Assembly: GCF_000023445.1 (NCBI RefSeq)
Contig: NC_012881.1
Span: 3,380,001 to 3,444,000 of the forward strand
DNA: 64,000 nt
From: Maridesulfovibrio salexigens DSM 2638
Lineage (GTDB): Bacteria > Desulfobacterota > Desulfovibrionia > Desulfovibrionales > Desulfovibrionaceae
Direction of reading: 5' to 3'
The position numbers and the translations under genes are program-made. Positions 22,716 to 60,640 of the stretch are shown here, in pieces; position 1 is the stretch's first letter, and each line of letters begins with the position of its first letter. Under the pieces are notes generated by a model that was given only the letters and a program-made list of their open reading frames with translations, was not told the DNA's origin and searched no databases.

Positions 22716-22718
22716 GAC

Positions 22719-23738: not shown

Positions 23739-24311
23739 CTAGATATTTCCGTCCAAGAAGTTCTTCAGCAGTTTCGGTCCATCCGGTGTCAAAATTGATT
23801 CTGGATGGAACTGCAACCCTGTCCACGGGCGGTCCTTATAGCGAAGGCCCATTACTTCATCCTGATCAGTCCATGCGGTCAGCTCCAGCATATCCGGTGC
23901 TTCATCCACATTGACCACTAGAGAATGGTAGCGGCAGACATTAAACGGATTATCCAGACCAGTGAAAATGCCTTCATTCTTGTGGTGAACATCGGAAGTC
24001 TTGCCGTGCATGATCCGTCCGGCGCGGACTACGGATGCCCCCGCAAAATGACCTAAAGTCTGGTGACCTAGGCAGACGCCGAGTACCGGAATTTCCTTGG
24101 GCAGACGAGAAAGGAATTCCAAGGACAACCCTGCGTTTTCCGGATTACTGGGGCCGGGAGAAAGGCAGACCCGTTCCAGTTTGCCGGACTCTGCAAGCTC
24201 AAGGATTTCCTCACGGTCATTGCGCAGCACCAGAGGATCAGCCCCAAGCTGCTGAAATGCCTGCACCAGATTGAAGGTAAATGAATCAAAATTATCTACG
24301 AGTAAAAACAT
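23739..24311 (-). CDS. trpG: Anthranilate synthase component II (glutamine amidotransferase)
   Basis: TrpG hydrolyses glutamine and gives ammonia to TrpE. The class I amidotransferase triad is visible: Cys in GVCLGHQ, and His and Glu in QFHPES. The chosen start ATG 24311 gives 190 residues beginning MFLLVDNFDSF, the canonical N-terminus, and overlaps the end of trpE by 20 bases. A longer frame to 24437 lies wholly inside trpE and is rejected. Confidence 0.95.
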   Translation of the reverse strand: MFLLVDNFDSFTFNLVQAFQQLGADPLVLRNDREEILELAESGKLERVCLSPGPSNPENAGLSLEFLSRLPKEIPVLGVCLGHQTLGHFAGASVVRAGRIMHGKTSDVHHKNEGIFTGLDNPFNVCRYHSLVVNVDEAPDMLELTAWTDQDEVMGLRYKDRPWTGLQFHPESILTPDGPKLLKNFLDGNI

Positions 24312-25707
24312 CACCGCCCTCCGATTGCAGAATTTCCTTAAGCACCCTTGCCTTGTTGTTGCATTCCTTCCATTCCATTTCAGGATCGGAATCATAAACG
24401 ATTCCAGCCCCGGCCTGCCAATGGCACTTGCCATCACGAATCCACATGGAACGAATGGTAATACCGGTATCGAGGTTCACGGAATCCTTATCCAGACCGA
24501 TAAAACCGATGCAGCCTCCGTAAGGACCGCGCGGAACTTCCTCGATTTCGGAAATGATTTCCATGGCCCTGATTTTAGGGGCACCGGAAAGTGTTCCCGC
24601 CGGAAAGGTCGCTTGCAGCACGTCGATGGCATCGTGATCATCACGCAGATCGGCTTCCACATAAGAAGTGATGTGCATTACGTGGCTGAAGTATTCGATC
24701 TGCTTGAATTTTTCGACACTCACGGTACCGGGCTTGGCGATACGTCCAAGGTCATTGCGGCCAAGGTCAACCAGCATGACATGTTCAGCGATTTCCTTGG
24801 GATCAGCGAGCAGCTCTTCGGCATACTTGCGGTCCCCGGCAGCATCCTTGCCGCGCGGACGGGTCCCGGCGATAGGACGAACTTCCAGCCTGCCTTTATC
24901 GCAACGGGCCATCAATTCGGGGGAAGAACCGAGCAGGATTTCCTCACGGCTGAACTTCATATAGAACATGAACGGCGAGGGATTGGCCTGACGCAGGCGG
25001 CGATAAAGATCAAAGGAGTCACCGCTGAAAGGAGCAGAAAAACGGGTAGAAAGAACCACCTGAATGCATTCGCCCTCGGCAATGAGATCCTTAACTTTCT
25101 TGACCCCTTCCATATATTTTTCCTTACCCGGAACAGCCACCGGATCACCAACCTTGGTCGGTTCGCACTCGGCACCGAAAACAGGCGGTGTAAATTCAGG
25201 AGCGTCATCCTTATCAAGTGAAAGAAAGCAGCAGCTGTGCTTGAGGTGATCGAAAAGAACTACCCGTCCGGGCAGAGCCAAACGAACCTCAGCATCATCA
25301 GCAGGCAACTTCTCTTTGAGCTTCGGCTCCAGCATTCCGGCAATTCCGTAACCGAGTGTTCCGTATAGGCCGCGAGTCAGAGCAGGAAGTTCACCGACTT
25401 CCGGCTGGGCTTTCAGGTGCAGGGCCTTCATGACAGCACGCATGCCCTCCAGAAACTCCATGCCCGAATAAGTTGCCAATCCCGCAAGCCTTGAATCAGC
25501 GCATTCCACGGAAAGCTTACCGCGCACAGGTGAAAGCTTGAGTCTGAAATCCCAAGCTATAAGGCTGTAACGTCCAAGTCGTCCGTCAACCTCGGCACTT
25601 TCCAATAGAATTCCCGGCGCATCACCGACCAAGCCTAGATACAGACTGATCGGAGTCTGCGTATCAGCCGGCAACCATTTGCCATACTGAGTTAGTTCAA
25701 TCTTCAT
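24292..25707 (-). CDS. trpE: Anthranilate synthase component I
   Basis: TrpE makes anthranilate from chorismate. The 471-residue protein has the feedback-binding LLES motif near the N-terminus (residues 35-38) and C-terminal chorismate-site signatures PIAGTRPRG, DLGRNDLGRI and GTLSGAPK. Presence of LLES suggests feedback inhibition by tryptophan (family knowledge). It heads the trp operon; its 5' leader holds an inverted-repeat element instead of a Trp-rich leader peptide. Confidence 0.95.
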   Translation of the reverse strand: MKIELTQYGKWLPADTQTPISLYLGLVGDAPGILLESAEVDGRLGRYSLIAWDFRLKLSPVRGKLSVECADSRLAGLATYSGMEFLEGMRAVMKALHLKAQPEVGELPALTRGLYGTLGYGIAGMLEPKLKEKLPADDAEVRLALPGRVVLFDHLKHSCCFLSLDKDDAPEFTPPVFGAECEPTKVGDPVAVPGKEKYMEGVKKVKDLIAEGECIQVVLSTRFSAPFSGDSFDLYRRLRQANPSPFMFYMKFSREEILLGSSPELMARCDKGRLEVRPIAGTRPRGKDAAGDRKYAEELLADPKEIAEHVMLVDLGRNDLGRIAKPGTVSVEKFKQIEYFSHVMHITSYVEADLRDDHDAIDVLQATFPAGTLSGAPKIRAMEIISEIEEVPRGPYGGCIGFIGLDKDSVNLDTGITIRSMWIRDGKCHWQAGAGIVYDSDPEMEWKECNNKARVLKEILQSEGGDVFTRR

Positions 25708-25740
25708 CTTGAGTTTCTCCGTATCCGGTTAGTTTTTATT

Positions 25741-25867
25741 AATAAGTTGTTCAAAAAGTGCCAGATGCAAGGCGCAATAAAAGTTTAAGGCCGAAGCGTA
25801 TCTAAATACATGAGGATTTAAACTTTTTGCAGCAACGCCGCAGATGGTGCTTTTTCAACAACTTATT
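25741..25867. repeat. MITE-like imperfect inverted repeat in the trp leader
   Basis: A 127-bp element has perfect 11-bp ends (AATAAGTTGTT...AACAACTTATT) and longer imperfect arms that continue through AAAAAG, CCA, GATGC/AGGCG and AAGTTTAA. No coding region is inside. It sits 33 bases upstream of the trpE start, between it and the aro operon terminator. By shape it resembles small non-autonomous elements. I recall related sequences (GCGCCTTGCATCTGGC type) in intergenic regions of other Deltaproteobacteria. Confidence 0.7.
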
Positions 25868-25890
25868 GTAATCGCTCACACCAATTTTAT

Positions 25891-25930
25891 ATATAAAAAA
25901 AAGACCGCGTTCCGGGAGAACGCGGTCTTT
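25891..25930 (-). terminator. Terminator of the aro-pheA-tyrA operon
   Basis: A 12-bp stem (AAAGACCGCGTT/AACGCGGTCTTT) with a 7-base loop lies 23 bases after tyrA. On the minus strand it is followed by a T-tract. It separates the aro operon from trpEGDCFBA, so the trp genes need their own promoter or read-through. Confidence 0.88.
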
Positions 25931-25953
25931 ATCTTTTTTAGATGCACTTCTCC

Positions 25954-26730
25954 CTAGGTATTGTTGTCACGCCACCACCAAGAAGCACGGTCTGCAAGCA
26001 GGTCCATATCACCTGCGGCAGCCAAAGAGAGAAAAGAACGGAACAGACGAGTAGCTTCCTGACTGTACTGGTTGGCATCAGTAATAGTCCCGAATAAATC
26101 GCTGTCCTGAGTGACCATCTTGCGTGCGGATTCGAGTCTGCGCTTGAAAGAAGGGGTCACAAACTTTTTAATATTGGGAATTTCGCGGGAACAGGCCAGA
26201 AATGCAATTGTGGAACTGAAGTTCAGGGCCTGAATCATAGCCATAGCTTTATCGTGCTCTTCAACAGAAGATTCAAAAGCGCCGAAATTGAGACGCTCAA
26301 AGAAATCCTTCACAGCCAGCATCGCCGGACGATCTTCTTCACGCTCTGCAACAAGTGCAACAGTGGGATCAAAATCAGCAGGAATCACCGGTCCGAACAA
26401 GGGATGAGTACCTACCACGGGACCATCGTAAGCACGAAGCATCTGCTGGACCGGACGCCCTTTGACCGAACCTACATCAGAGAGGATCGCACCCTTTTTC
26501 AAATGCGGAATAACCACGGGCAGGACCTCGTCCATAACCGTCACCGGAATGCACAGGATAACCAAATCGGTATCCGGCAGGCGGCGGGCCATCTTTTCCT
26601 CGTCGAGCGGAGTGTCAAAACGGTAGACCATCAGTCCGGCCCGTTCAGCAGTGAGCGCGAGGAAGCCCCCCATCTGGCCCCTAGACCCGATGATGGCTAC
26701 ACTATGTATTTTCTCAAACTCGCACTCCAT
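25954..26730 (-). CDS. tyrA: Prephenate dehydrogenase
   Basis: TyrA makes 4-hydroxyphenylpyruvate for tyrosine. The N-terminal Rossmann motif is SVAIIGSRGQMGGF, followed by the typical 'DVGSVKG' and 'GTHPLFGP' segments with a catalytic His. No chorismate mutase domain is fused. ATG 26730 follows the aroA stop by 2 bases. An in-frame TTG at 26739, overlapping aroA, has a better-spaced AAGGA and may be the real start (three more residues). It is the last gene of the aro operon. Confidence 0.9.
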   Translation of the reverse strand: MECEFEKIHSVAIIGSRGQMGGFLALTAERAGLMVYRFDTPLDEEKMARRLPDTDLVILCIPVTVMDEVLPVVIPHLKKGAILSDVGSVKGRPVQQMLRAYDGPVVGTHPLFGPVIPADFDPTVALVAEREEDRPAMLAVKDFFERLNFGAFESSVEEHDKAMAMIQALNFSSTIAFLACSREIPNIKKFVTPSFKRRLESARKMVTQDSDLFGTITDANQYSQEATRLFRSFLSLAAAGDMDLLADRASWWWRDNNT

Positions 26731-26732
26731 GA

Positions 26733-28067
26733 CTAACAACCATTTCCTTTTTTAACTTTTTCCCATTCATCCCAGAAACCGGGGAAAGATTTTGCAACAC
26801 AACCGGGCTCAGCCGGGATTGATTCAATACCTGCCATAGCGAAAATCGCAGTACACATGGCAAGGCGGTGATCATCATAGGTATCGAAAACTATACGTTC
26901 ACCTTTCTTGAGAGGTGCCGGGATAATGGTAATGGAATCAGCGGTAATCTCGGCCTTGCCGCCTGCGCGCATGACTTCGGCAGCACTTGCTTCGAGACGG
27001 TCACATTCCTTGATACGCAGGTGGGCTACATTGGTGATGGTAGTCGGGCTGTCCGCAAAGGCGGCAGCGACAGCTACGGTAGGCACCAGATCAGGGCACT
27101 TGCTCATGTCCACCTCAACGCCGTGCAGCTTGGAGGGGTAAACAGTTACGCTGTGATCGTCACTTTCGATCTTCGCGCCCATGGATTCAAGGATGTACAT
27201 GATTGCCCTGTCTCCTTGAAGGGAATTTACGTTCATCCCTTCAATCTTAACAGGATTGTTACCTACAGCCCCGGCAGCGAGGAAGTAGGAAGCATTCGAC
27301 CAGTCACCTTCAACGCGGTATTCATCGCGGTCGAACTTGGAGGGCTCGACTACAAAACGAATTTCGCCGGGAACAACCTTCTCAACTTTTCTCCAGTCGG
27401 TCTTTTTCCATACACCGTCTTTCTTGGCCTGAACCTCAAACTTAACTCTGAAATCTTCCATAACGTTGAGGGTCAGGGCAACGTAAGGCCATGATACAGC
27501 TTTCTCGCCAATCACATTGATGATGGTGGTTTCATCGGCTAGAGGTGCGCCAAGCAGCAAGCCGGAAAGGTACTGGCTGGACTCCTCAAGTGAGATATCC
27601 ATTTGCTTACCTTTGAATCCGGAAGCCTCAAGAGTTACCGGAGGGTAACCCTGTTTATCGGAGAAGGTTACCTTGGTGCCCTGTGATTCAAGCGCACTGG
27701 TCAAAGCTCCGATGGGACGGTCGTGCATGCGCGGTGTACCCTGCACCCTGAAAAGTCCCTTACCTGCACCGGCAAGAGCAGTGATCAAACGGCAGGTGGT
27801 GCCGGAGTCACGCATTTCCAGAACCGCAGGTTCCTTGGCACCGCCCTTGGGACCGCCGTCCATACCGGTAACGGTAGTGGCTGTTCCATCAATATTGAAC
27901 TTCGCGCCCATAGTGCTCAGGCAATCCATGGTCCGGTTGATGTCGTTGCTATCGAGAGGATCAAGTACAACGGTGGAGCCTTCAGACAAAGCACCGGCAA
28001 TCAACGCCCTGTGTGACAGGGATTTTGATGATGGAGCTTTTACTACGATTACATTTTCAGAAGTCAT
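26733..28067 (-). CDS. aroA: 3-phosphoshikimate 1-carboxyvinyltransferase (EPSP synthase)
   Basis: The enzyme joins phosphoenolpyruvate to shikimate-3-phosphate, the sixth shikimate step. Landmarks are PSSKSLSHRAL at the N-terminus, MRDSGTTCRLI, GDWSNASYFLAAGAV and CDRLEASAAEVMRAGG, all in the order expected for the two-domain fold. The length of 444 residues is normal. It lies between pheA and tyrA with a 46-base gap upstream. Confidence 0.94.
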   Translation of the reverse strand: MTSENVIVVKAPSSKSLSHRALIAGALSEGSTVVLDPLDSNDINRTMDCLSTMGAKFNIDGTATTVTGMDGGPKGGAKEPAVLEMRDSGTTCRLITALAGAGKGLFRVQGTPRMHDRPIGALTSALESQGTKVTFSDKQGYPPVTLEASGFKGKQMDISLEESSQYLSGLLLGAPLADETTIINVIGEKAVSWPYVALTLNVMEDFRVKFEVQAKKDGVWKKTDWRKVEKVVPGEIRFVVEPSKFDRDEYRVEGDWSNASYFLAAGAVGNNPVKIEGMNVNSLQGDRAIMYILESMGAKIESDDHSVTVYPSKLHGVEVDMSKCPDLVPTVAVAAAFADSPTTITNVAHLRIKECDRLEASAAEVMRAGGKAEITADSITIIPAPLKKGERIVFDTYDDHRLAMCTAIFAMAGIESIPAEPGCVAKSFPGFWDEWEKVKKGNGC

Positions 28068-28113
28068 TTTATATATTCCCGGCTAAATGAGCCTAGTAAA
28101 AAAATCTTTGTTT

Positions 28114-29217
28114 TTAAAATTTACTGCCGTCTTGTGAACCTGCGGGGTAACTGCCGAGTATTTTAAAAGTCAGGCAGCGTGCTTTAAGATCCTCGATAAG
28201 TGAAGCGTGCTCTTCGGCACCGAGATCACCTTGCAGATCAACGAAAAACATATACTTCCACTTTTCACCGAGAGCAGGCCGGGACTCAAGCTTGGTCATG
28301 TTTATGTCATGACCGGAAAGCTCATTGAGGACTTCCACAAGTGCACCGGGACGGTCCGGAGTAGTGAAAAGCAGTGAAGTTTTGTCACGCTTATCTTCTT
28401 GACCGGGCTTAGGGCCGATGATCAGGAAGCGGGTCCAGTTGTCCGGCAAATCTTCGATGGCCTCTGCGACTACATGCAGACCGAAAAGATTAGCCAATTT
28501 TAAATGTCCGACTGCAGCTACGGGGTCATCGCTATCAGCTACCATCTGGGCAGCCTTGGCAGTGGACTCTACAGACACGAGCTCTGCACCGGGCATGTTG
28601 GCACGAAGCCATCCGGTGCATTGCTCTAGTGCCTTGGAGTGTGAGTAGACCGTTTTGATCTCGCTGATGTCGGCACCCTTGGTCATCAGTCCGTGGCTGA
28701 TACGATGATACAGCTCGGCCTGAATGAACACCGGATAGCGCATGAACAGATCAACGTTCTGCCCGACCGTTCCCTTGAGCGAATTTTCAAGGGGGATAAT
28801 GCCGAGGTCGGCTTCGCCCTTGGAAACGGCCACAAAAATATCTTCAAAATTATTTTTAGGGAGCAGGTCAGCCTGACGTCCCATGTGCTGTAGTCCGGCA
28901 AAATATGAAAATGTCCCTTCGGGGCCTAGATAGACCACACGCTCAGGCCTTTGCAGCCTGCGGGAGGAAGAAATAATTTCGCGATAAATTGCTTCAAGGT
29001 GCTCAGGGGGGAGAGTTCCGGGATTGCGCTTGATTAGACCGCGCAGCACTTCCTGCTCCCGGAAAGGCTTGAAAATCTGATCAGATGATCCGGCCTTTAT
29101 AGCTCCAACTGCGAGAGACGCAGCGGCACGTTTGTTGAGAAGCTCTAGAATTTCACTGTCGAGGGAATCGATTTCCACCCGCAGATCGCCAAGATTTTTT
29201 TTGCTGGACTGTGACAT
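28114..29217 (-). CDS. pheA: Chorismate mutase-prephenate dehydratase (P-protein)
   Basis: This bifunctional enzyme makes phenylpyruvate for phenylalanine. The domains are an AroQ-type chorismate mutase (about 1-90, LGDLRVEIDSLDSEILELL), prephenate dehydratase (about 95-275, YLGPEGTFSYFAG and the NWTRFLIIG segment), and an ACT regulatory domain (about 285-365) with ESRPALGEKW, which usually senses phenylalanine. The start ATG 29217 lies 7 bases after the preceding gene; the longer frame to 29301 overlaps it and is rejected. Confidence 0.94.
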   Translation of the reverse strand: MSQSSKKNLGDLRVEIDSLDSEILELLNKRAAASLAVGAIKAGSSDQIFKPFREQEVLRGLIKRNPGTLPPEHLEAIYREIISSSRRLQRPERVVYLGPEGTFSYFAGLQHMGRQADLLPKNNFEDIFVAVSKGEADLGIIPLENSLKGTVGQNVDLFMRYPVFIQAELYHRISHGLMTKGADISEIKTVYSHSKALEQCTGWLRANMPGAELVSVESTAKAAQMVADSDDPVAAVGHLKLANLFGLHVVAEAIEDLPDNWTRFLIIGPKPGQEDKRDKTSLLFTTPDRPGALVEVLNELSGHDINMTKLESRPALGEKWKYMFFVDLQGDLGAEEHASLIEDLKARCLTFKILGSYPAGSQDGSKF

Positions 29218-29224
29218 TTTATTA

Positions 29225-30208
29225 TTAATCCTCTGAAATTTCTTCTTTGATGCGCATGCCGAAATGGCGGCCCGCTTCATCAATACGGCAAAGAACTTCA
29301 TCGCCTTCTTTCAATGTTACCACACTTACAGGTTCACCGTCACCGCTTACAACTCTGATGGTCTCAGCGTTCTGAAGGAAAACCTTGCCGGAAACCGGAC
29401 CTTCCGGGGTCTGGACCTCGGCGGTGATCAGCAGCATGGGACGAACTTCAAGTTTGCTGCGTCCGACAACTGCTACGGAAGTCTCGCCGCTTTTATCAAC
29501 AACCAGCACCTCGGAACCGGAACGCAGTTCTTCGAGATAAGTGGTCTTGTCGCCGGGCAGAATGGCGTAGGCATGAACAGCCCCGGCATTAACCCGGAAA
29601 GGACGCGCTGCAACGTAAGGGTTGGATTCGGTTTCAGCATGCACGAGAAAGGTGAAGGCGGAAGAATTTCCGGTAAGGATTCCCTGTCCTTTCTTGAGCT
29701 TGGAAGTGGTATCCACACAGACCCTGTGGGCCAGACCTGCGGATTCGATGCTGGTTACTGTTGCTTTCTGAAGTTCCATCTTACCCTGCGAGAGTTTCAG
29801 TTCGGCTACAATCTGCTTAAGATCAGCAGCGCCTTCGGGAGTTACTACGATTGAATCAGCACCACGTTCCATAACCGATGCAGCAAGTCTTGCGCGGTCA
29901 AGTGATTCAGCTTCAAGGGCAAGGGCATCAATCTGGGCAAGCAGGTTTTCAACCGGGATAATCTCCCAACCTGCGGCGAGACAAACGTCTTTACCTTTTT
30001 TGTCAAGATCAACCGCAACTGCTTCGTCAGCCTTTTCGTTGATAGCTACACAAGGCATTTCTTCCGGAGTAATTACAGAGACTCGCCCGAGAGATTCAAC
30101 GGTTTCCTTGTCTTCAGGAGAAGTGAGAATGGCATCCACTCCGGACTCCAGTGCAAGGCTGAGAAGCTTTTTATCAAAAGGGATCGCTTTGAATATAATC
30201 TTTTTCAT
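29225..30208 (-). CDS. aroB': 3-dehydroquinate synthase II (archaeal-type)
   Basis: This family (MJ1249 type) oxidatively deaminates and cyclises 2-amino-3,7-dideoxy-D-threo-hept-6-ulosonate to 3-dehydroquinate with NAD. It replaces the usual AroB. The 327-residue protein shows family segments such as NPYVAARPFRVNAGAVHAY and LRSGSEVLVVD. It follows the first enzyme of the same alternative route by 14 bases. The pairing of both genes makes the assignment secure. Desulfovibrio is known to use this route. Confidence 0.92.
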   Translation of the reverse strand: MKKIIFKAIPFDKKLLSLALESGVDAILTSPEDKETVESLGRVSVITPEEMPCVAINEKADEAVAVDLDKKGKDVCLAAGWEIIPVENLLAQIDALALEAESLDRARLAASVMERGADSIVVTPEGAADLKQIVAELKLSQGKMELQKATVTSIESAGLAHRVCVDTTSKLKKGQGILTGNSSAFTFLVHAETESNPYVAARPFRVNAGAVHAYAILPGDKTTYLEELRSGSEVLVVDKSGETSVAVVGRSKLEVRPMLLITAEVQTPEGPVSGKVFLQNAETIRVVSGDGEPVSVVTLKEGDEVLCRIDEAGRHFGMRIKEEISED

Positions 30209-30222
30209 TTTCCGTTCCTAAA

Positions 30223-31020
30223 CTATTCGCCGATGTGTGCGAGAGCGTTATCTACAGTTTCATCTTCGTGTACGATCATGTGCAGGGCTTCTACCAGTTT
30301 AACGCGGTTTTCATGCTGGAAGACATTGCGGCCAACAGAAAGTCCGGCGCCGCCAGCTTCGATGGAATCTGAAACCATCTGCAGGAAATCGCGGGTGGAA
30401 TCGAGCTTGGGCCCCCCAGCGATTACTACCGGGATGCAGCATCCTTCAACCACGTCTTTGAAACTTTCAACATCGCCGGTGTAGGGAACTTTTACGATAT
30501 CAGCACCGAGTTCTTCGCCTGCGCGGGCGCAATGGGCAACAACTTCGGGATCGAATTCGTCTTTGATCTGAGGACCGCGGGCGTAAACCATTGCCAGCAC
30601 CGGAACACCCCAGCTGGTAGCGGCGGAAGCAACTTCACCGAGATCGGAAAGCATCTGTGCTTCGGCTTCATCACCGAGATTAACGTGAACGGAAACGGCA
30701 TCAGCACCGAGGCGAAGTGCGTCTTCAACAGTACCGACGAGAGTTTTTTTATTGGGGAGAGGGGAAAGACAGGTGGAAGCGGAGAGATGAACGATGAGGC
30801 CGACGTCGCCGCCCTCTTCACGGTGGGAGCAGCGAACAAGACCTTTGTGCATGAGCACGGCGTTGGCTCCTCCCTTGACCATATCGTTAACCGCTCTTCG
30901 CATGGATCGAAGTCCCTTAAGCGGCCCGACACTTATACCGTGGTCCATGGGAACAACGATAGTGCGGCCTGTATTGCGGTTTAAGATCCGCTCCATTCTT
31001 ACGCTTTTTCCAATCTGCAT
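30223..31020 (-). CDS. aroA': 2-amino-3,7-dideoxy-D-threo-hept-6-ulosonate synthase
   Basis: This class I (DhnA-type) aldolase (MJ0400 family) makes the precursor of 3-dehydroquinate from aspartate semialdehyde and a 6-deoxy-5-ketofructose phosphate. The Schiff-base Lys is in [11 protein letters not shown], and the acid/base Tyr in [21 protein letters not shown] is the family signature near the N-terminus. At 265 residues it is full length. It is the first structural gene of the aro-phe-tyr operon, behind an attenuator. Confidence 0.92.
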
Positions 31021-41094: not shown

Positions 41095-41901
41095 CTATAT
41101 TACCCCTGACAGTTTCAAACACTTCTTGGTAACATCAAACCGCGACTTGGAAAATGAAGCTCCCGGTTCGGGCGACTCAAGATAAGTGGCATAATAAAAC
41201 ATCCTGCCTTCCTTAACCTTCACAGCTCCTACCAACCATCCAATTTGCGGGTTAACCCGCTGAGCCCATCCGGTCTTACCCCATAATGTATACTTGTCAT
41301 TTCTTTCCAAGAGCAGAATATCTCTTATGGCCTTCTGATCTTCCTGAGGAAAAGGGAGGATTCCATTATATAACTTCTCCAAGAACTCAACCTGCTCCAA
41401 AGGAGTAACCCTTAAATTGCCGTCAAGCCAGAAAGCAATAGTCGGACCTTCAGTATCAGCATTTGTATAGTCAAGCCGCAACAATTCCTCATGTATTCGA
41501 TCACGCCCGATCCTTCCGGCTGTCTCCTCAAAATACCAAATAGCTGAATGTTTAACCGCCTGGGCAAGACTCAAATCCTGATTCCATGGTTTGTAACCGC
41601 GATCCTTGCCATCCCACTTCAGGACTGAATCAATACTCTCATGCACCCCGGTTTTCAGGGCAATAAGGCTATGTACTATTTTAAATGTTGATGCAGGCAT
41701 CAAAGGCTGATCAGCTAGCTGCAAGTCACTGGCAGTAATGATGCTACGCTCAGCATCAAGCAGGACAAAACACCCTTTGTAAGCGCAATCTTTAAATGGG
41801 CCGGCAAGCCGTTTATCAAGAACAACAGGACCCGCAACAACGGTCGAACAAAACATGCACACCCACAAAAAAATAAATACAACCACTCTGCAAAATGACA
41901 T
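41095..41901 (-). CDS. Class D beta-lactamase-like protein (OXA type)
   Basis: The 268-residue protein has a signal peptide (about 1-24). Class D motifs are present: S71-T-F-K74 (active-site Ser and Lys), S119-A-I121 in place of SxV, YTN (145-147) in place of YGN, and K209-T-G-W. These support an active serine penicillin-binding fold. Class D enzymes hydrolyse beta-lactams, but some chromosomal relatives act poorly or have other roles, so resistance is not shown. ATG 41901 has GGAGGGG upstream. The gene sits in an ordinary chromosomal setting without mobile-element signs. Confidence 0.88.
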   Translation of the reverse strand: MSFCRVVVFIFLWVCMFCSTVVAGPVVLDKRLAGPFKDCAYKGCFVLLDAERSIITASDLQLADQPLMPASTFKIVHSLIALKTGVHESIDSVLKWDGKDRGYKPWNQDLSLAQAVKHSAIWYFEETAGRIGRDRIHEELLRLDYTNADTEGPTIAFWLDGNLRVTPLEQVEFLEKLYNGILPFPQEDQKAIRDILLLERNDKYTLWGKTGWAQRVNPQIGWLVGAVKVKEGRMFYYATYLESPEPGASFSKSRFDVTKKCLKLSGVI

Positions 41902-41937
41902 TATCCCCTCCTGCAAAGGTCGGCTCAGCGGACAAAT

Positions 41938-53072: not shown

Positions 53073-53110
53073 AAAGCCCGCAGGTATGTAACAATGCCCG
53101 CGGGCTTTTG
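53073..53110 (+). terminator. Terminator after the HD-domain gene
   Basis: The stem AAAGCCCGC/GCGGGCTTT (53073-53081/53100-53108) is followed by TTGCGTTT. It closes the upstream unit before the GAK operon. Confidence 0.75.
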
Positions 53111-53254: not shown

Positions 53255-53821
53255 ATGGCTAAAAAAAGCAAAATTGAAAAATATATACAGCCCGGAGAAC
53301 TCCCGGAATTCCTTCGTAAAATAGCGGACGCACTTGAAGGTGGGGCCTCGGAAGATGATGCCTACCTTGTTATGATCGAAGGATTCAAAAAGCTGAAAAT
53401 CAACATCCGCAATGAATACGGGCATACCGCCGTAAAAGTCACAGCCAAGCCCATGCCCTCTTCCATGTCCAGTGAAAAAGAAGACCTCGCAGACGCAGAT
53501 AGTGCTTCACCCACAGAGCAGGACAGTGAAAGCAAACCCAGTTATAAGAGCCTAAAAAAACGAATGAAGGCTTCCTTCAAGGTAATCTTTAAATCCGTCC
53601 ATGCGGGAACACTCCCTCCGCCTGAAGTAGTGGAAGAATTCATGGCAGATTCACGCACTATGGTCAGTTTTGAAGGCCACGGAGATGAATACTATGACGA
53701 ATTCATTGCCGCCTGCGAAAAATTTCAGCAGGCCTGCAATAATTCAGACGTGCAGGCAGCCCACAACGCCTGTGACGAGATCAACAGCATCACCGCCCAC
53801 TGCCATTCAAGGTACAAATAA
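53255..53821 (+). CDS. GAK system XXXCH protein
   Basis: The 188-residue protein has an amphi-Trp-like N-terminal part (about 8-65), an acidic linker (about 72-95) and a C-terminal helical domain ending ITAHCHSRYK. That ending resembles the CxxCHxxYK heme motif at the end of cytochrome c'-type bundles, but the first Cys is Thr, and there is no signal peptide, so ordinary heme c attachment is not expected. This fits the named XXXCH family. It is the first gene of an eight-gene operon with the other GAK genes. Possible roles are a carrier or a substrate of the kinase and ligase (speculative). Confidence 0.85.
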   Translation: MAKKSKIEKYIQPGELPEFLRKIADALEGGASEDDAYLVMIEGFKKLKINIRNEYGHTAVKVTAKPMPSSMSSEKEDLADADSASPTEQDSESKPSYKSLKKRMKASFKVIFKSVHAGTLPPPEVVEEFMADSRTMVSFEGHGDEYYDEFIAACEKFQQACNNSDVQAAHNACDEINSITAHCHSRYK

Positions 53822-53830
53822 GAGGACATC

Positions 53831-54973
53831 ATGAACGCAGCAGCCTCCTGCCCCGCGGCAGTAAAAGTTTCCCCCGAAATTACAGATGAGGATCGAGCAC
53901 GGTTCCACGAAGTAATATCCACCGAACTTGCCGATTGGCAGATTGAACAGGTGGTCACACCCTCAAAAATCCATGCCCGGCAGGAAAACCTGCTGGCTGT
54001 GCACTGGCACCCTGAATTCGTGCCATTCGAATACATTTCACAGCGCGTAAAAAAAATGTTTCCCAACGTGCACGACAAACTGATGATCCCTACCCAACAC
54101 AATGTGCTTATGAGTTACGGGGATTACACCGGGGTCGAAGTGGACTGCTATGCCAGCGGATTCAACCAGAAAGTACAGCTCCTTCTGCATTTTGAAAATG
54201 AAAAGGTAAAAGAAGCCCACGTACTTAAATCAATGCTGGCTCATACCTTCAAATACCGCTCCTCCCAGCTTTTCGAATACATGGACTCCATCACCAAACC
54301 CATAACAGAGCGAGTGGAGAAGGCAGCCAAAGCCACCGGTGCAGATGAAGACCTTGTGGAAATGGTCAGGATCTACGTGACCAAAATCCAGACCATGCTT
54401 GATGAAGAGTGGTCTACCGTGCCCAAGGACTCCATTAAGAACAAGCTCCTGCGCAATTACTTTGACGCCATGCGCCCAAAATACGGCGACAACCTGATTA
54501 ACCGCATTCAGGCTTATATCAAAGAGGTTAAGAAGCTGGTCAAAGCAGACTTCTCTTTAAAATTCTTCTACCGGGCCACAGAGGTGATTGAAGAAGCGCG
54601 TTCTCTTGGCGGCTGTGTAGTTATTCCGCACCCTGAAGAGTTCTGGCCCATCCTGCTGGCTAAATATGATGTGGACGGAATTGAGGTCTGGAACCCGCAA
54701 TCCCAGCGTTATACCGACTTCCTTATCTCCGTGGTCAACGAGCAGAACGCGTCCCGCTCTGCCGGAAGCAAGGAGTTGCTTATCTTCATGGGCGATGATT
54801 GCCATATGAGTGAAAAGACCAAGCCTCTGGATACTCAGGATACAGCCAAAGCTGCCCGTGAAATCGGTCTTCAACCTGCTTGGGATGACCTGAATATAAG
54901 GAAAAAACTTATTGTGGCCGGAATCGACCGCCATTCAGTAATACAGGAATACAAAGCCCGCATGGCAGGCTAG
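53831..54973 (+). CDS. PHP-domain phosphoesterase-like protein in the GAK operon
   Basis: The 380-residue protein shows the PHP metal-ligand pattern in order: H58-W-H60, IPTQH90, G-V-E103, H267-P, GIEVWNP, and G-D-D-C-H325. PHP domains hydrolyse phosphate esters or other bonds with two or three metal ions. A charged helical insertion (about 130-245) separates the two halves of the domain. There is no signal peptide. It starts 9 bases after the XXXCH gene. The substrate is unknown. Confidence 0.75.
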   Translation: MNAAASCPAAVKVSPEITDEDRARFHEVISTELADWQIEQVVTPSKIHARQENLLAVHWHPEFVPFEYISQRVKKMFPNVHDKLMIPTQHNVLMSYGDYTGVEVDCYASGFNQKVQLLLHFENEKVKEAHVLKSMLAHTFKYRSSQLFEYMDSITKPITERVEKAAKATGADEDLVEMVRIYVTKIQTMLDEEWSTVPKDSIKNKLLRNYFDAMRPKYGDNLINRIQAYIKEVKKLVKADFSLKFFYRATEVIEEARSLGGCVVIPHPEEFWPILLAKYDVDGIEVWNPQSQRYTDFLISVVNEQNASRSAGSKELLIFMGDDCHMSEKTKPLDTQDTAKAAREIGLQPAWDDLNIRKKLIVAGIDRHSVIQEYKARMAG

Positions 54974-55069
54974 CAGAATTTTATCTTCGTCATCGAATCT
55001 TTACCTTGCTGCAATAATTATCATTACTCAAAGTGCTAGTAAGCAGCAAAACATTCATGGAGAATTCTG

Positions 55070-55342
55070 ATGGCAAGTGAAAAGAAATTCGTATTTGAAT
55101 CACTGCAGGATAGGGAGACGATCCGCACTTTCCTGCAATCCCTTGTGGAAGGCTTTGAATCAGGAAAGATCAAGCTTTCCACCAACGGTGACGAAATTGA
55201 GCTGCACCCGGAAGGTCTGCTTAACTTCACCGTAAAAGCAAGACGCAAAGAAAACGGCAACAAAATAAATATTAAAATCGGCTGGAAGGATTCCGACGGG
55301 AACGATAACCCCAGCGACAAAACCCTAAACATCGACACTTAA
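55070..55342 (+). CDS. Amphi-Trp domain protein 1
   Basis: This 90-residue protein has the amphi-Trp layout: an N-terminal helix (TIRTFLQSLVEGFESG), beta strands with alternating polar and hydrophobic residues (KIKLSTNGDEIELHP, NFTVKARRK), and a conserved Trp near the end (NIKIGWKDSDG). Function is unknown. It lies 96 bases after the PHP gene and 3 bases before the next, so it is likely in the same operon. A second paralogue closes the operon at 60232. Confidence 0.82.
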   Translation: MASEKKFVFESLQDRETIRTFLQSLVEGFESGKIKLSTNGDEIELHPEGLLNFTVKARRKENGNKINIKIGWKDSDGNDNPSDKTLNIDT

Positions 55343-55345
55343 ATT

Positions 55346-56998
55346 ATGCTCACATTTGAAGGGTTGGATGAAAACTTCAAGTTCCTCATCCTCGAGGTAT
55401 TGAACCAACTTAAGGCTACACGGGAATTCGTGGCTTCGCCCTCCCGTTCCCTGTTTCGCAAGATAACTTCTCGCGATGACTACATCGATAACCTGAAGAC
55501 TGTCATTGAGAACAAGTCTTATTCCCGCATCAACAGCACTATGGACCTCGACCCCAAGCTGCTGAACAAGATCAGGGCAATTCAGGTTTCATCGGTCAAT
55601 CTGGAACGTATCGGCGACCATTGCGTCAACATTATTAACCAGATGGCCTATCTGGAGGATAAAGGTTGCGTAAACCGTTACGAATGCGCCGAAGCCTTTG
55701 ATATCATCGAAGAAACCGTTGCAAAGATTGCTGAAGGTTTCAGCTCGGAAGATATGCCTCTGGCCCTTGAAATATGTAAGTCTGAATACAGGTTGGATTC
55801 ACTTTACAAGGACAATTTCAACCGCATCATGGCTGAGATGGGCAGCGGGAAAAACATCCCCGACCGCGTAACCTGCCTCTTCATATTCCGCTACCTTGAA
55901 AGGATCGGCGATTCCCTGCTCAACATCGGGGAAGCGATCATATTTTCCATCCTAGGCGAGCGCATCAAAATTGAGCAGTTTGAATCGTTGCAACAGACCT
56001 TGAGCGTTTCCGGTTATGACGGTTCTTTCTCGGATATCGACTTTCAGGGTATATGGGGTTCGCGCTCCGGCTGCCGCATAGGTCGAGTCCAGACAAAAGA
56101 TAAGGATCAGGCTCCCCCGGTGGCACAGGGAAGTATCTACAAAGAAGGCAATCTCGACAAAATCAGACTGGAAAGAAACAGCCTTGAACAATGGAACCAA
56201 CGTTTTCCGGGCATGGTGCCTGAAATATTCGGCTTCCACGAAAACAAGGATGAAAATAAAGGTTCCATGCTAGTCGAGTTCCTGCCCGGATGTACTCTCG
56301 ATACCATGATCCTGACCTCTGATGACGCAGACCTTGAAAACGCGCTGTTCACCCTTGAACAAACCCTGCGCCATGTCTGGAGCATCACCAAAAAGGACGG
56401 CCCTGCTCCGACAACCTTTATGGCCCAGCTCAAATCGCGCCAAAACGGAGTACTACAGGTTCACCCGGAATTTCACCGCAATGCCCGCCAGATGGGAAAT
56501 GCTGAAATTATTTCCTCCGAAGCCCTCCTCAATGAATGCGCGGCAATCGAAAAGTCTCTTCCGGCTCCTTTCACTGTCTTTATCCACGGCGATTTCAACT
56601 GCAACAATGTGGTTTACAGCAACGAAGACGAAAGGGTCAGATTCATCGACCTGCACCGCTCCCGTGACTTTGACTACATTCAGGACCTGTCGGTCTTCCT
56701 TGTTTCCGGCTTCCGTATGCCGGTCTTTGAACGGCCCATCAGAAACAAAATCAATGCTGTGATTTCGCGCATGTACAGCTTTGCGGAAGAGTTCGCTCAG
56801 GAAAACAATGACGAAACATGGCAGGCGCGTCTTGCCCTTGCTCTGGCGCGCTCCTTCTACACATCCACCCGTTTCGAGTTCAACTACACTTTTGCTAAAG
56901 AAATGTTCAACCGTTCCATGTTCCTGCTGGAAAAGATGAACCGTTACAACGGTAAATGGAATAATTTCATTCTGCCGGAAGACATCCTTCATTACTAA
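55346..56998 (+). CDS. PhoU-aminoglycoside phosphotransferase-like fusion (GAK-associated kinase)
   Basis: The first about 215 residues are a PhoU-like helical bundle with both repeats (LERIGDHCVNI and LERIGDSLLNIGE). The rest (about 235-540) is a protein-kinase-like phosphotransferase of the APH type. The catalytic loop is H414-G-D416 with N421, and the metal-binding Asp is in FIDLHRSRDF. It is not a resistance enzyme by context: a small-molecule or protein kinase of unknown target fused to a phosphate-signalling fold. It starts 3 bases after the amphi-Trp gene. Confidence 0.85.
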   Translation: MLTFEGLDENFKFLILEVLNQLKATREFVASPSRSLFRKITSRDDYIDNLKTVIENKSYSRINSTMDLDPKLLNKIRAIQVSSVNLERIGDHCVNIINQMAYLEDKGCVNRYECAEAFDIIEETVAKIAEGFSSEDMPLALEICKSEYRLDSLYKDNFNRIMAEMGSGKNIPDRVTCLFIFRYLERIGDSLLNIGEAIIFSILGERIKIEQFESLQQTLSVSGYDGSFSDIDFQGIWGSRSGCRIGRVQTKDKDQAPPVAQGSIYKEGNLDKIRLERNSLEQWNQRFPGMVPEIFGFHENKDENKGSMLVEFLPGCTLDTMILTSDDADLENALFTLEQTLRHVWSITKKDGPAPTTFMAQLKSRQNGVLQVHPEFHRNARQMGNAEIISSEALLNECAAIEKSLPAPFTVFIHGDFNCNNVVYSNEDERVRFIDLHRSRDFDYIQDLSVFLVSGFRMPVFERPIRNKINAVISRMYSFAEEFAQENNDETWQARLALALARSFYTSTRFEFNYTFAKEMFNRSMFLLEKMNRYNGKWNNFILPEDILHY

Positions 56999-57021
56999 AA
57001 GTTTTAGAAAAGGTGCTGACA

Positions 57022-57897
57022 ATGAAAATAGGTGTAATCGGACTTAAAGGCGCATGGTCCTCCGAACAGCTTGCCAAGGCAGTAGCTGAAAAAACAAGCC
57101 GGGAACCGAGAATATTTGAAATGCAGGACATGCGTCTTGACCTGCCCTCCGGTCGGGCCATTGTGGAAGGCGAAGACCTTTCAACCTATGACGCGCTGAT
57201 CATAAAAAAGATAGGCAGGCAATACTCACCGGATCTGCTGGATCGCCTTGAAATGCTGCGCATGCTTGAAGGACGCGGAGTAAAAATATTTTCATCGCCC
57301 TACTCCATCCTGCGCGTGCTGGACCGCCTAACCTGCACCATATCCCTGCAATTGGGAGATATCCCCATGCCTCCGACCACTATCACCGAGGACGTGGATC
57401 ACGCTCTTGCTGCAGTGGAGGAATATGGAGAGGCAGTATTCAAGCCTCTGTACAGCACCAAAGCCAGAGGTATGTTTGTTCTCAAGCCCGGACCTGACGC
57501 TCGCAAAATTATTGAGGATTACCATCAGGAGTACAACACCATGTACATCCAGAAGACAATCGACCTCAATGACAGCGACCTCGGCATAGTCTTTCTGGGC
57601 GGGAAATACCTGACCACCTACGCCCGCTGCAAAACCACGGATTCATGGAATACAACCACCGTGAACGGCGGCAAGTACGCCCCCATTGATCCTCCGCAGG
57701 AGATCATCGACCTTGCGCAAAAGGCACAGGCAATCTTCAACCTTGATTTCACCTGTGTAGACGTAGCCATTACCCCTGACGGTCCATTTATTTTTGAAGT
57801 ATCTGCTTTCGGCGGTTTCCGCGGCCTGCGCGATGCAAGAGGCATTGATGCTGCTGCCCATTACGTAGACTATGTAATCAATAAGGTGAAAGGATAA
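57022..57897 (+). CDS. GAK system ATP-grasp enzyme
   Basis: The 291-residue protein is a RimK-like ATP-grasp: FKP (140-142), a nucleotide-binding strand with QK (177-178), CVDV (245-248) and FEVSAFGGFRG (258-268). In RimK-type ligases the last motif reads EVN; here the metal-binding Asn is Ser. Family members join a carboxylate to an amine using ATP. The substrate is unknown. ATG 57022 was preferred to GTG 57013. Its stop overlaps the start of the kinase gene (TAATG). Confidence 0.88.
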   Translation: MKIGVIGLKGAWSSEQLAKAVAEKTSREPRIFEMQDMRLDLPSGRAIVEGEDLSTYDALIIKKIGRQYSPDLLDRLEMLRMLEGRGVKIFSSPYSILRVLDRLTCTISLQLGDIPMPPTTITEDVDHALAAVEEYGEAVFKPLYSTKARGMFVLKPGPDARKIIEDYHQEYNTMYIQKTIDLNDSDLGIVFLGGKYLTTYARCKTTDSWNTTTVNGGKYAPIDPPQEIIDLAQKAQAIFNLDFTCVDVAITPDGPFIFEVSAFGGFRGLRDARGIDAAAHYVDYVINKVKG

Positions 57898-58985
57898 TGA
57901 ACCAGACCGCAATGACCAGATCAGCAATTGTTGAAAAATACCGCAGAGAATTCCCGGTCACCGAGTCCCTGTTTATTGATTTCGGCGGTTGCGTAATTGA
58001 AACGCGGGTTAACAACTCTGACCTACTGGCTGACCTGAACAATTACTTCAAAGAATTTCTGGTAGATACAAACAAAGGCGACATCCTGATCACCGCCCAC
58101 GAATGCCCTGCAGTGGACCTCGGCCTTGAATACACTGTAAAGCAGCCTGATCCCGGCAAGACCAAAATCAAGGAAGAATTCCATAACCTTCCAGACGGTC
58201 GCGTCGTTTACAAAAGGCTGACCGGAATGATCTTCGTCTTCGGTGGAGGCGAAAACATCGCCATCGGACCCTGCATTGAAAATTCCAACCAGCTCATAAA
58301 CTTCATCAACAATCGTTTTATAGAATTCAAGCTCAACCACGGTTGTTATCTGGGACATGCCGCAGGGGTTATCGCAAATGGACGAGGCATTGCTATGGCC
58401 GGATTTTCAGGCATGGGTAAATCAACTCTCGCCCTGCACCTTATGAGCCGTGGAACTACTTTCGTCAGCAATGATAGGATCATGGCTGAAAAGAACGGTA
58501 ACTCCCTGACCATGTACGGTGTTGCCAAACAGCCGCGCATCAACCCCGGGACAGCTCTAAACAACCCCGACCTTTCCTGCATAGTTGCCCCTGAAGACAA
58601 GGAAAAATTTATGTCCATGCCTAAGGAAGAACTCTGGGAGCTGGAACATAAATACGATGCCCTCATAGATGAGTGCTACGGCAAAAACAAATTTATTCTC
58701 AAGGCCCCCATGAGCGGGCTTGTTATCCTGAATTGGCAGCGTGACAACTCTGAAACTGAGATTAAAATTGTTGATCCCAAGGAGCGTAAGGACCTGCTTC
58801 CAGCCTTTATGAAAGGAACCGGACTCTTCTATCTCCCGGACTCTTCGGAAAATGAAATGGATCCTGATGTTGACGCCTATGCTGATTTTCTGTCAAAGAC
58901 AACTCTCATTGAAATCAGCGGCGGTGTGAATTTTGATAAAGCTGCCGATGCCTGCCTGAAATTCATGAAGGAAGGCAAACTTTAA
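57897..58985 (+). CDS. HprK-related kinase B (GAK system)
   Basis: The C-terminal half resembles HPr kinase/phosphorylase: H154 in LGHAAGV, Walker A G169-FSGMGKS176, then RGTTFVSNDR, the counterpart of the LVADD segment with the first Asp changed to Asn (N192-D193). The protein has 362 residues; its N-terminal 140 residues are family-specific. HPr kinases phosphorylate a Ser side chain; the target here may be another GAK protein (inference). It overlaps the ATP-grasp gene by one base, which fits co-translation. Confidence 0.88.
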   Translation: MNQTAMTRSAIVEKYRREFPVTESLFIDFGGCVIETRVNNSDLLADLNNYFKEFLVDTNKGDILITAHECPAVDLGLEYTVKQPDPGKTKIKEEFHNLPDGRVVYKRLTGMIFVFGGGENIAIGPCIENSNQLINFINNRFIEFKLNHGCYLGHAAGVIANGRGIAMAGFSGMGKSTLALHLMSRGTTFVSNDRIMAEKNGNSLTMYGVAKQPRINPGTALNNPDLSCIVAPEDKEKFMSMPKEELWELEHKYDALIDECYGKNKFILKAPMSGLVILNWQRDNSETEIKIVDPKERKDLLPAFMKGTGLFYLPDSSENEMDPDVDAYADFLSKTTLIEISGGVNFDKAADACLKFMKEGKL

Positions 58986-59018
58986 TCAACATTAATTATT
59001 ACCAACCCAAGGAAGTTG

Positions 59019-60206
59019 ATGCGCATTAAGATCGAACGAGAAGTCAGGGTGCCGGACCCGATCAAGCTGGAACGCTATAGAAGAACCCCGGACCTCGGCC
59101 CCCGAATACTCTTTTTCAGCGGCGGAACTGCGCTTAAAAAGACTTCCTCTGTACTTACCCAGTACACTCACAACAGTATTCATGTGATCACCCCCTTTGA
59201 CTCCGGGGGCAGCTCTGCGGTCATCCGCAATCATTTCAATATGCTGGCTGTGGGCGATATCCGTAACAGGCTTATGGCTCTTGCAGACCAGTCCGTCCTT
59301 GGCAACCCGGAGATATATCGCCTTTTTTCCTACCGCCTGCCAAGTGACGCCGATGAAAATGAACTGCGTGCTGAATTCGAAGAAATGATGGAATGCAAGC
59401 ACCGTCTTGTACGCGATATTCCGGCACCAATGCGCAAAATCATCCGCAACCATTTCATCAAATTTGCCGACATCATGGACGATTTCAATCTGCGCGGAGC
59501 CAGCATCGGCAATATAATTTTAACTGCCGGATACATCAGCAACCGTCGTCATATAGACCCGGTAATCTATATTTTTTCCAAGCTTGTTGAAGTACGCGGA
59601 ACAGTACGTCCCACCGTGAACAAGGATGTTCATCTTGCAGCAGAATTAGAGGACGGAACTTTCGTTGTCGGACAGCACCTGCTTACCGGCAAGGAAGCAT
59701 CCCCCATCGGTTCCGGCATCAAAAAACTCTGGCTGGCTGAAAAGCTAGGCGATTCGACTCCCTGCGCAGTCCAGATTCGCGAAAAAATGACTAAACTGAT
59801 CAACAGCGCGGAACTGATCTGCTACCCTTTGGGAAGTTTCTATTCCAGTGTAGTAGCCAACCTGTTGCCTGAGGGCATCGGCAGGGCTGTCAGTGAGAGC
59901 AAATGTCCTAAAGTGTTCACACCCAACACCGGAACCGACCCGGAGTTGAAAGGGCACTCCCTGACTGACCAGATCAACAAACTTCTCTACTACCTGCGCA
60001 AGGATGATCCTGAAAACATCGAGATCAAAGATGTGCTCAATTTCGTTCTTGTGGACTCGGTGAACGGAATTTATCCCGGTGGAATAGATATAAAAGAGAT
60101 AAATAAACTCGGTATCAGGGTAATCGACTGCGAGCTTGTCAGCGAGAAAAGCACTCCCTATCTGGATCCGGAACTTCTCTCACAGGCCCTGCTTTCGCTG
60201 ACCTGA
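59019..60206 (+). CDS. GAK system CofD-like protein
   Basis: The 395-residue protein resembles the CofD/YvcK group: SGGT (34-37), D61-SGGSSAVIR70, and VGDIRNRLMALAD (78-90). CofD transfers a phospho-lactyl (or similar) group from a nucleotide carrier in coenzyme F420 synthesis; YvcK proteins bind nucleotide-sugars. No F420 genes are seen here, so another acceptor is likely. ATG 59019 was chosen; TTG 59016 just before it is an alternative. It follows the kinase gene after 33 bases. Confidence 0.88.
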   Translation: MRIKIEREVRVPDPIKLERYRRTPDLGPRILFFSGGTALKKTSSVLTQYTHNSIHVITPFDSGGSSAVIRNHFNMLAVGDIRNRLMALADQSVLGNPEIYRLFSYRLPSDADENELRAEFEEMMECKHRLVRDIPAPMRKIIRNHFIKFADIMDDFNLRGASIGNIILTAGYISNRRHIDPVIYIFSKLVEVRGTVRPTVNKDVHLAAELEDGTFVVGQHLLTGKEASPIGSGIKKLWLAEKLGDSTPCAVQIREKMTKLINSAELICYPLGSFYSSVVANLLPEGIGRAVSESKCPKVFTPNTGTDPELKGHSLTDQINKLLYYLRKDDPENIEIKDVLNFVLVDSVNGIYPGGIDIKEINKLGIRVIDCELVSEKSTPYLDPELLSQALLSLT

Positions 60207-60231
60207 CTACCGAATAAAAAGGCAGGTGCAT

Positions 60232-60579
60232 ATGAGTAAAGAAGGTAGAAACAAGGTAAGCCTGAAAAAGAAAGTCGGGCACGAAGAAGCCGTAGCCATT
60301 CTGGAAGACATCCTGAAAAGCTTTAAATCAGGAGACATGGTTATCCAGAACGGTGAAGATTCAATAACCCTGAATCCTTCTGATAAAATCAGTATGGAAA
60401 TCAAGGCCAAAACCAAGAAGCTGAAAAACAAACTCAGTATGGAACTTTCATGGAAAGTGGAGCCGATTGAAGCTGAGGATTTCAGTATTACTGAATCCGG
60501 GCCCGATGACCCTGAAAATGAAACTCATGAAACAAAACCTGAGTTCAGCAAAGCAAGGGTCATTAAAAAAGCTGAGTAA
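60232..60579 (+). CDS. Amphi-Trp domain protein 2
   Basis: The 115-residue protein repeats the amphi-Trp layout: helix (EEAVAILEDILKSFKSG), strands (MVIQNGEDSITLNP, ISMEIKAKTKKL) and the Trp in SMELSWKVEP. A charged, probably disordered tail of about 35 residues follows. ATG 60232 has GGCAGGTG before it. It is the last gene of the GAK operon; a terminator follows. Confidence 0.82.
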   Translation: MSKEGRNKVSLKKKVGHEEAVAILEDILKSFKSGDMVIQNGEDSITLNPSDKISMEIKAKTKKLKNKLSMELSWKVEPIEAEDFSITESGPDDPENETHETKPEFSKARVIKKAE

Positions 60580-60604: not shown

Positions 60605-60640
60605 AACTCCTCTCTATATCAAATAGGGAGGAGTTTTTTA
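60605..60640 (+). terminator. Terminator of the GAK operon
   Basis: The stem AACTCCTC/GAGGAGTT (60605-60612/60628-60635), with extra inner pairs, is followed by TTTTTT-rich sequence. It lies 25 bases after the last GAK gene. Confidence 0.82.

Follow-up and report, generated by a model that had tools for sequence, protein, structure and literature searches.

The 64,000-nucleotide stretch of Maridesulfovibrio salexigens DSM 2638 considered here (NC_012881.1, positions 3,380,001 to 3,444,000; hereafter the window) contains a complete eight-gene operon, a genuine and ordinary case of the GAK (Grasp And Kinase) system, a named system whose function stays obscure. Four things about it are new: a predicted PHP-fold phosphoesterase and a fusion of PhoU with an APH-fold kinase are part of its core; its phosphatase module appears to be exchangeable; its XXXCH protein is a predicted fusion of two domains; and two of its proteins have altered active sites. 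Our tentative proposal for its role is a phosphate-responsive, reversible phosphoryl-transfer system, both substrate and chemistry being proposals only. The families are named in NCBIfam, and no paper on the GAK system was found in the open-licence PMC literature. The term “XXXCH domain” is used once in PMC8879037, in a table entry for a phage tail-fiber protein; XXXCH was not found in the searchable text of a genome paper (PMC12389409), and the terms sought do not occur in a D. vulgaris fitness paper (PMC10102598).

The original prediction, made from the sequence alone, was of eight same-strand genes at 53255-60579 with a terminator at the end, together forming a complete GAK operon. This description holds: all eight open reading frames (ORFs) are on the + strand and are followed by a hairpin, six of the proteins score above the NCBIfam cut-offs of named GAK families, and the five named families (TIGR04354-TIGR04358) are found in one cluster (Table 1). 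Gaps between the ORFs, as read from the sequence, are 9, 96, 3, 23, -1, 33, and 25 bases; the ATG starts at 57022, 59019, and 60232 were chosen, the ORF listing beginning slightly upstream of each at GTG or TTG. The 96-base gap upstream of amphi-Trp-1 leaves room for an internal transcription start. A scan gave 16 terminator-like sites, against 9.8 expected from shuffles, and of these the hairpin at 60605-60635 has the most pairs (13). A long-loop hairpin with a T-run, seen by eye and not listed by the scan, lies at about 53073-53108, between the operon and the HD-type gene that precedes it.

Table 1. Genes and terminator of the GAK operon (positions are those of the window).
Feature	Position	Strand	Evidence and details
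XXXCH protein	53255..53821	+	TIGR04358 125 bits, cut-off 40; amphi-Trp-like N-domain (~4-65), four-helix bundle (97-187), Cys183-His184
PHP-fold phosphoesterase (predicted), 380 aa, unnamed family, core member	53831..54973	+	predicted structure; nine invariant candidate metal ligands
amphi-Trp type 1, Thr at conserved Ser/Thr17	55070..55342	+	TIGR04354 73.5 bits, cut-off 31
PhoU-APH fusion kinase, 550 aa; PhoU ~7-206, APH ~268-473	55346..56998	+	TIGR02135, PF01895, PF01636
GAK ATP-grasp, RimK/MptN-like	57022..57897	+	TIGR04356 (grasp_GAK) 475.3 bits, cut-off 300; RimK/LysX in PDB
HprK-related kinase B (HprK_rel_B)	57897..58985	+	TIGR04355 601 bits, cut-off 200
GAK CofD-like protein, YvcK-related (CofD_rel_GAK)	59019..60206	+	TIGR04357 580.5 bits, cut-off 340
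amphi-Trp type 2	60232..60579	+	TIGR04354 65.7 bits, cut-off 31
terminator-like hairpin + T-run	60605-60635	+	hairpin scan

A genome scan yielded at least 520 stretches with a relative of the ATP-grasp, of which 80 were kept; by record title these belong to Desulfobacterota, Alpha- and Gammaproteobacteria, Zixibacteria, Nitrospirae, FCPU426, and Atribacteria. Ninety-eight loci were mapped (18 + 80 named), and two others with a distant ATP-grasp only (L048, L049) are excluded from all locus counts. Gene presence was counted at 69 loci, taking genes of both strands up to 6 kb from the ATP-grasp (29 of the 98 had too little flank), and neighbors at 67 (31 of the 98 were shorter than 15 kb); three near-identical locus pairs leave both sets at these sizes. 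Alignments were limited by length to 68 PHP, 75 HprK-B, 81 PhoU-APH, and 44 XXXCH sequences. PhoU-APH is present at 66 of the 69 loci, amphi-Trp at 65, HprK-B at 64, PHP at 58, the CofD-like protein at 55, and XXXCH at 44. The PHP protein and the PhoU-APH fusion had been described as extra members, but by these counts both are core.

Among 297 genomes of the phylum, grasp_GAK (above cut-off in 20) has 19 genomes in common with HprK-B (20), 17 with PHP (21), 16 with CofD-GAK (26 at E ≤ 1e-30, 24 of them above cut-off), and 13 with XXXCH (20, above cut-off). Chance overlap would be 1.3 to 1.8 per pair, kinship of the genomes inflating the significance. Conserved order and co-occurrence are far beyond chance, and the genes are co-inherited rather than scattered. 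Genomes that lack the ATP-grasp include 10 with CofD-GAK (below cut-off in one), 7 with XXXCH, and 4 with PHP; the ATP-grasp is without PHP in 3 and without HprK-B in 1, some of the exceptions being incomplete assemblies. Because each also occurs in genomes lacking the ATP-grasp, CofD and XXXCH are looser members. One genome (G219; L153:6051-9339, -) has adjacent PHP and PhoU-APH genes and no GAK ATP-grasp above cut-off, a reduced version. In genus g4 (G213, G277) the operon is split over two sites, one with the ATP-grasp and HprK-B, and CofD ~4 kb further, the other with XXXCH-PHP-amphi-Trp-PhoU-APH and a second HprK-B; in G277 they are 2.2 Mb apart. Every family is nonetheless kept, and this retention after dispersal is strong evidence for joint function. 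Inheritance of the gene set as one unit is shown by computation.

The PhoU-APH label proved sound, both domains being matched on one 550-aa protein. The PhoU domain (PF01895) scores 81.4 bits (cut-off 23.5) over residues 7-206 and also has PhoU matches in the PDB; the APH domain (PF01636) scores 44.8 bits; and the full-length PhoU model falls below its cut-off (93 vs. 130), as it should for a fusion. The motif of APH-fold kinases is HGDxxxxN with a downstream Asp, and the corresponding candidate catalytic residues H414, G415, D416, N421, and D435 are invariant in all 81 sequences. With its motif so conserved, PhoU-APH is probably a kinase in fact as well as in name, and the most secure one of the operon.

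The 380-aa protein has no NCBIfam match and no significant Pfam match (best E 0.066). Its PHP label is nonetheless well supported, by a predicted structure, by its fold matches, and by conserved residues. An AlphaFold2 model from an alignment of 50 sequences has a mean pLDDT (predicted local distance difference test) of 92.4. A Foldseek search of the PDB with it gave only three chains at E ≤ 0.001, and each of them is a PHP phosphoesterase: 3e0f and 3o0f, the putative metal-dependent phosphoesterase BAD_1165, and 9etk, RNase AM (identity 14-17%, TM-score 0.38-0.50). Nine His, Asp, and Glu residues, candidate metal ligands, are invariant in 68 of 68 sequences and stand in what we take to be the order of PHP metal ligands. 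By fold and candidate ligand set, then, this is probably a PHP phosphoesterase. RNase AM itself is described in PMC9410882 as a PHP enzyme that has three metals and takes a 5'-phosphate into a positively charged cavity.

At seven loci (L117, L119, L123, L125, L128-L130), which we take to be alpha- and gammaproteobacterial (in part from record titles), PHP is absent, with no match in the genome either at E ≤ 0.001; at two other PHP-less loci (L121, L124), a PHP gene is found elsewhere in the genome. The seven have instead a NUDIX gene upstream of PhoU-APH, and between HprK-B and amphi-Trp they carry histidine-phosphatase and metallophosphoesterase genes. By all-ORF clustering each of the three is found at all seven loci, and by stricter gene calls at 6, 5, and 6, respectively; Pfam confirms representatives, and L117 and L119 also have histidine-phosphatase-NUDIX fusions. 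CofD is on the opposite strand at four of these loci and was not seen at the remaining three. The feature common to PHP and its substitutes is hydrolysis of phosphate esters or anhydrides. As judged from these sequences, the phosphatase module is exchangeable, the apparent alternatives being PHP or the NUDIX/histidine-phosphatase/metallophosphoesterase set.

Two further enzymes of the operon have altered active sites. Of the catalytic residues of HPr kinases, HprK-B keeps the His, the P-loop Lys, and the second Asp; in place of the first Asp it has Asn (Asn192) in 75 of 75 sequences, or 73 of 73 without near-identical loci. Lasso-peptide tailoring kinases are HPr-kinase-like. According to PMC9266682, they require the His-Lys-Asp-Asp set and are capable of Ser phosphorylation and polyphosphorylation. 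HprK-B may act on an acceptor for which no general base is required, or may have a regulatory role. The ATP-grasp gives a full-length profile match to RimK (E ~1e-23), but in 20 sequences the RimK D-x-R motif has become D-L-G (19) or D-L-S (1), and E-V-N has become E-V-S (20). Ancestry from the inositol-phosphate kinases PPIP5K or ITPK was also considered for this protein and rejected, the 14 PDB sequences listed (E ≤ 0.01) being all RimK, LysX, and other ATP-grasp ligases.

A different reading of the operon is as a biosynthetic pathway for a phosphorylated, amino-acylated small cofactor. The ATP-grasp would ligate an amino acid as MptN or CofF does, the CofD-like protein would transfer a phospho-group, the kinases and PHP would tailor the product, and the amphi-Trp and XXXCH proteins would bind or carry it. 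After its own family, the ATP-grasp indeed scores best in NCBIfam with MptN, tetrahydromethanopterin:glutamate ligase (143.7 bits, cut-off 350), and the CofD-like protein has the CofD fold (PF01933). In addition, the APH-fold, NUDIX, PHP, and histidine-phosphatase families act mostly on small molecules. However, the D-x-R and E-x-N positions of RimK/LysX are those lost, such a pathway has no need of a PhoU domain or of three amphi-Trp-type proteins, and the frequent neighbors (clusters in at least four loci, by eye) include no recurring cofactor-using enzyme. On balance we consider a cofactor pathway somewhat unlikely.

The closest PDB relatives of the CofD-like protein are YvcK-type proteins, and the YvcK model TIGR01826 matches it at 122.4 bits, below the cut-off of 196. 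PMC10128056 reports that GlmR acts as an accessory uridyltransferase. The same genome has another CofD_rel_GAK copy (403.5 bits, above cut-off) ~3 kb beyond the window (L145:6426-7562, -; G000:C1:3446946-3448046), and seven genomes of genus g3 have only a CofD of the CofD_rel_GAK family, with no GAK ATP-grasp above cut-off.

The amphi-Trp proteins are candidate substrates. The 118 sequences were typed by identity to the two window copies, and position 17 is Ser or Thr in 71 of 74 type-1 sequences (47 Ser, 24 Thr) vs. 1 of 44 of type 2 (Ser). This residue is proposed as the first candidate modification site. In HPr, Ser46 is followed by Ile and stands at the start of a helix, and the Ser/Thr-Ile of type-1 amphi-Trp is similar. 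An HPr-like carrier was nevertheless rejected: searched against the PDB, the type-1 profile gave no HPr (best match of any kind E=0.19), and homology is therefore not claimed. C-terminal tethering of the LysW type is not supported either, the amphi-Trp C-termini being variable. Among 14 control genomes, amphi-Trp (PF20068) is above cut-off in the archaeon Haloferax volcanii alone; the domain therefore reaches beyond GAK.

The XXXCH protein seems to be a relative. By hhalign, its N-domain matches amphi-Trp over 62 columns with 96% probability (two controls, 0.7% and 2.5%), and in its predicted model (pLDDT 88.0, predicted TM-score 0.58) the C-terminal part is a four-helix bundle. The best Foldseek match is cytochrome cb562 (E 0.0086), followed by native b562, c', and b562-carrying fusion constructs; none is below 0.001, and the 48 of 50 matches listed are not all native cytochromes. 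In profile comparisons Cys183-His184 falls over the CH of the cytochrome c' CxxCH (E 0.0038-0.05), with designed helical proteins scoring alike. His is conserved in 44 of 44 sequences and Cys in 43, but this second Cys and the His are all that is conserved, the complete CxxCH heme motif not being present. The model thus suggests an amphi-Trp-like domain joined to a cytochrome c'/b562-like bundle, heme binding being only putative. The idea that the XXXCH and amphi-Trp proteins are carriers or substrates gains from this shared domain. By eye, at least four of ten orphan XXXCH loci (L230, L231, L234, L238) are beside ferredoxin, oxidoreductase, or hydrogenase-type genes.

Neighboring genes were compared at the 67 loci and in 60 control regions from ten genomes, while the GAK loci are mostly from others and, where related, are not independent. 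About 21 measures were taken, uncorrected, on classes picked for recurring near GAK, which favors them. Pst genes are found within 10 kb at 9 loci vs. 1 control region (p=0.013), PhoH at 6 (7 under looser criteria) vs. 0, chemotaxis receptors at 16 vs. 4, and a radical SAM gene at 7 vs. 0. There is no clear difference for response regulators (22 vs. 18), GGDEF-like (9 vs. 3), or HD-type genes (5 vs. 4). At the locus L102, the operon adjoins Pst genes and a regulator that is PhoB-like but scores below the PhoB cut-off. Orphan parts can also be near phosphate genes: a CofD-GAK in G161 is 394 bases behind pstA-pstB-phoU, with phoU intact, another in G138 is near a DUF47-PHO4 permease pair, and an orphan PHP in G218 has phoU 2.9 kb away.

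The strongest neighbor, and the only one whose p survives correction for number, is a PHP-glycosyltransferase fusion of ~830 aa (e.g., L102:4214-6661, -), found at 17 of 67 loci vs. 0 of 60 controls (p=6e-6). Among NCBIfam models it comes closest to glucosamine-phosphatidylglycerol synthase (113 bits, below the cut-off of 480). Acyltransferase-GNAT genes (9 vs. 0) and phosphatidylserine-decarboxylase-like genes (4 vs. 0) are further neighbors of this kind, and could mean that GAK tailors a lipid or glycan phosphate and works with such enzymes in remodeling membrane lipids or surface glycans upon phosphate starvation. We regard this as distinctly unlikely: besides the favorable choice of the classes, such genes are missing from at least 50 of the 67 loci, none was noticed by eye in the window ORF lists, and the core contains no lipid or glycan enzyme family.

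In the phosphoryl-transfer system that we favor, the PhoU part would read phosphate status, or dock on the phosphate-uptake machinery, and so control the APH kinase. This kinase would phosphorylate an acceptor, to which HprK-B and the ATP-grasp would add further groups. The amphi-Trp proteins would carry or present the acceptor, the best candidate being type 1 with its Ser/Thr17, and the mark would be removed by PHP or by the proteobacterial hydrolase set. The CofD-like protein might bind a nucleotide or nucleotide-sugar ligand, as in YvcK/GlmR. XXXCH would be a partner of amphi-Trp, and the c'-like bundle of XXXCH, in the cytosol, may bind heme and so sense redox state or a gas. This scheme is suggested by the core PhoU domain, the invariant APH motif, the PHP fold, the exchange of hydrolases, and the retention of all parts after the split, and also by the orphan parts near phosphate genes, the excess of Pst genes, the amphi-Trp-like domain of XXXCH, and Ser/Thr17. 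The hint of phosphate chemistry in the original prediction is strengthened, and the link to phosphate has five supports: the PhoU domain in a core protein, the hydrolase inventory, the orphan parts, the regulator and Pst genes at L102, and the excess of Pst genes.

Several points weigh against it. The Pst value would fail correction, with related loci not independent, and at 58 of the 67 loci Pst genes are absent from the surrounding 10 kb; in this window none was noticed by eye in the ORF lists, where no model search was made. Phosphate genes are at only two of the four orphan CofD contexts read (G161 and G138, not G235 and G276). The PHP-glycosyltransferase, the chemotaxis receptors, and the radical SAM gene are unexplained by a phosphate model. 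HprK-B lacks the catalytic set of an HPr(Ser) kinase, with His-Lys-Asn-Asp for His-Lys-Asp-Asp throughout, and the 20 ATP-grasp sequences lack the two positions of a RimK-type glutamate ligase; with these residues lost, a different chemistry or a regulatory role is possible for either protein or for both. Ser/Thr17, finally, may be merely a helix cap.

A phosphoanhydride signal is also conceivable, although quite improbable. PhoU-APH, gated by phosphate, would make a phosphoester on an acceptor bound to amphi-Trp, possibly Ser/Thr17 of type 1 itself, and HprK-B would add a second phosphate; an ionised phosphate requires no general base, so HprK-B could do this without its first Asp. In Desulfobacterota PHP would erase the pyrophosphoryl mark, and in proteobacteria NUDIX and histidine phosphatase would do so. 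If true, phosphate signaling by inositol pyrophosphates would have a prokaryotic counterpart that shares its logic but not its ancestry.

Maturation of a RiPP (ribosomally synthesized and post-translationally modified peptide), with HprK-B and the ATP-grasp modifying amphi-Trp or XXXCH as product instead of signal, is very improbable: ATP-grasp RiPP ligases are among the weak NCBIfam matches, and lasso-peptide kinases phosphorylate or polyphosphorylate Ser (PMC9266682), but the amphi-Trp proteins are conserved domains with no leader/core layout, and no recurring protease or exporter was seen by eye among the frequent neighbors. An anti-phage defense system, for which the patchy spread across several phyla might speak, is scarcely credible given that PADLOC models match none of the eight proteins at E ≤ 1e-5, gene order is kept across phyla, and dispersed parts are retained.

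Elsewhere in the window, tryptophan and shikimate genes occupy 19195-31020 (-), their leading pair (29225-30208 and 30223-31020) looking by eye like archaeal-type early-shikimate genes, and an ORF at 41095-41916 (-) resembles a class D beta-lactamase by eye (STFK motif).

With a PhoU-kinase fusion and a phosphoesterase in its core, an otherwise obscure operon raises the concrete question of how phosphate is sensed, and GAK offers for it both a candidate substrate domain and marine hosts that can be cultured. Compared with known systems, the operon has the same five families as the GAK system of NCBIfam, where PHP and PhoU-APH bear no GAK family name. Its PhoU domain is that of the phosphate-signaling protein PhoU, here joined to an APH-fold kinase. 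With RNase AM and the nucleotide-bisphosphate PHP phosphoesterases, the PHP protein has the fold and candidate metal ligands in common, but it is only 14-17% identical, has a long helical insert, and matches no family. HprK-B can be aligned with HPr(Ser) kinase/phosphorylase in the P-loop region, overall likeness being weak (best PDB E 0.007). The ATP-grasp aligns full length with RimK/LysX/MptN ligases but scores below every non-GAK NCBIfam cut-off, and the CofD-like protein, although most like YvcK/GlmR (CofD-like, binding uridine diphosphate N-acetylglucosamine) in the PDB, does not reach the YvcK cut-off. XXXCH shares with cytochrome c'/b562 the predicted four-helix bundle and a C-terminal Cys-His that aligns with the CH of CxxCH, and differs in its single Cys and in the amphi-Trp-like domain in front.

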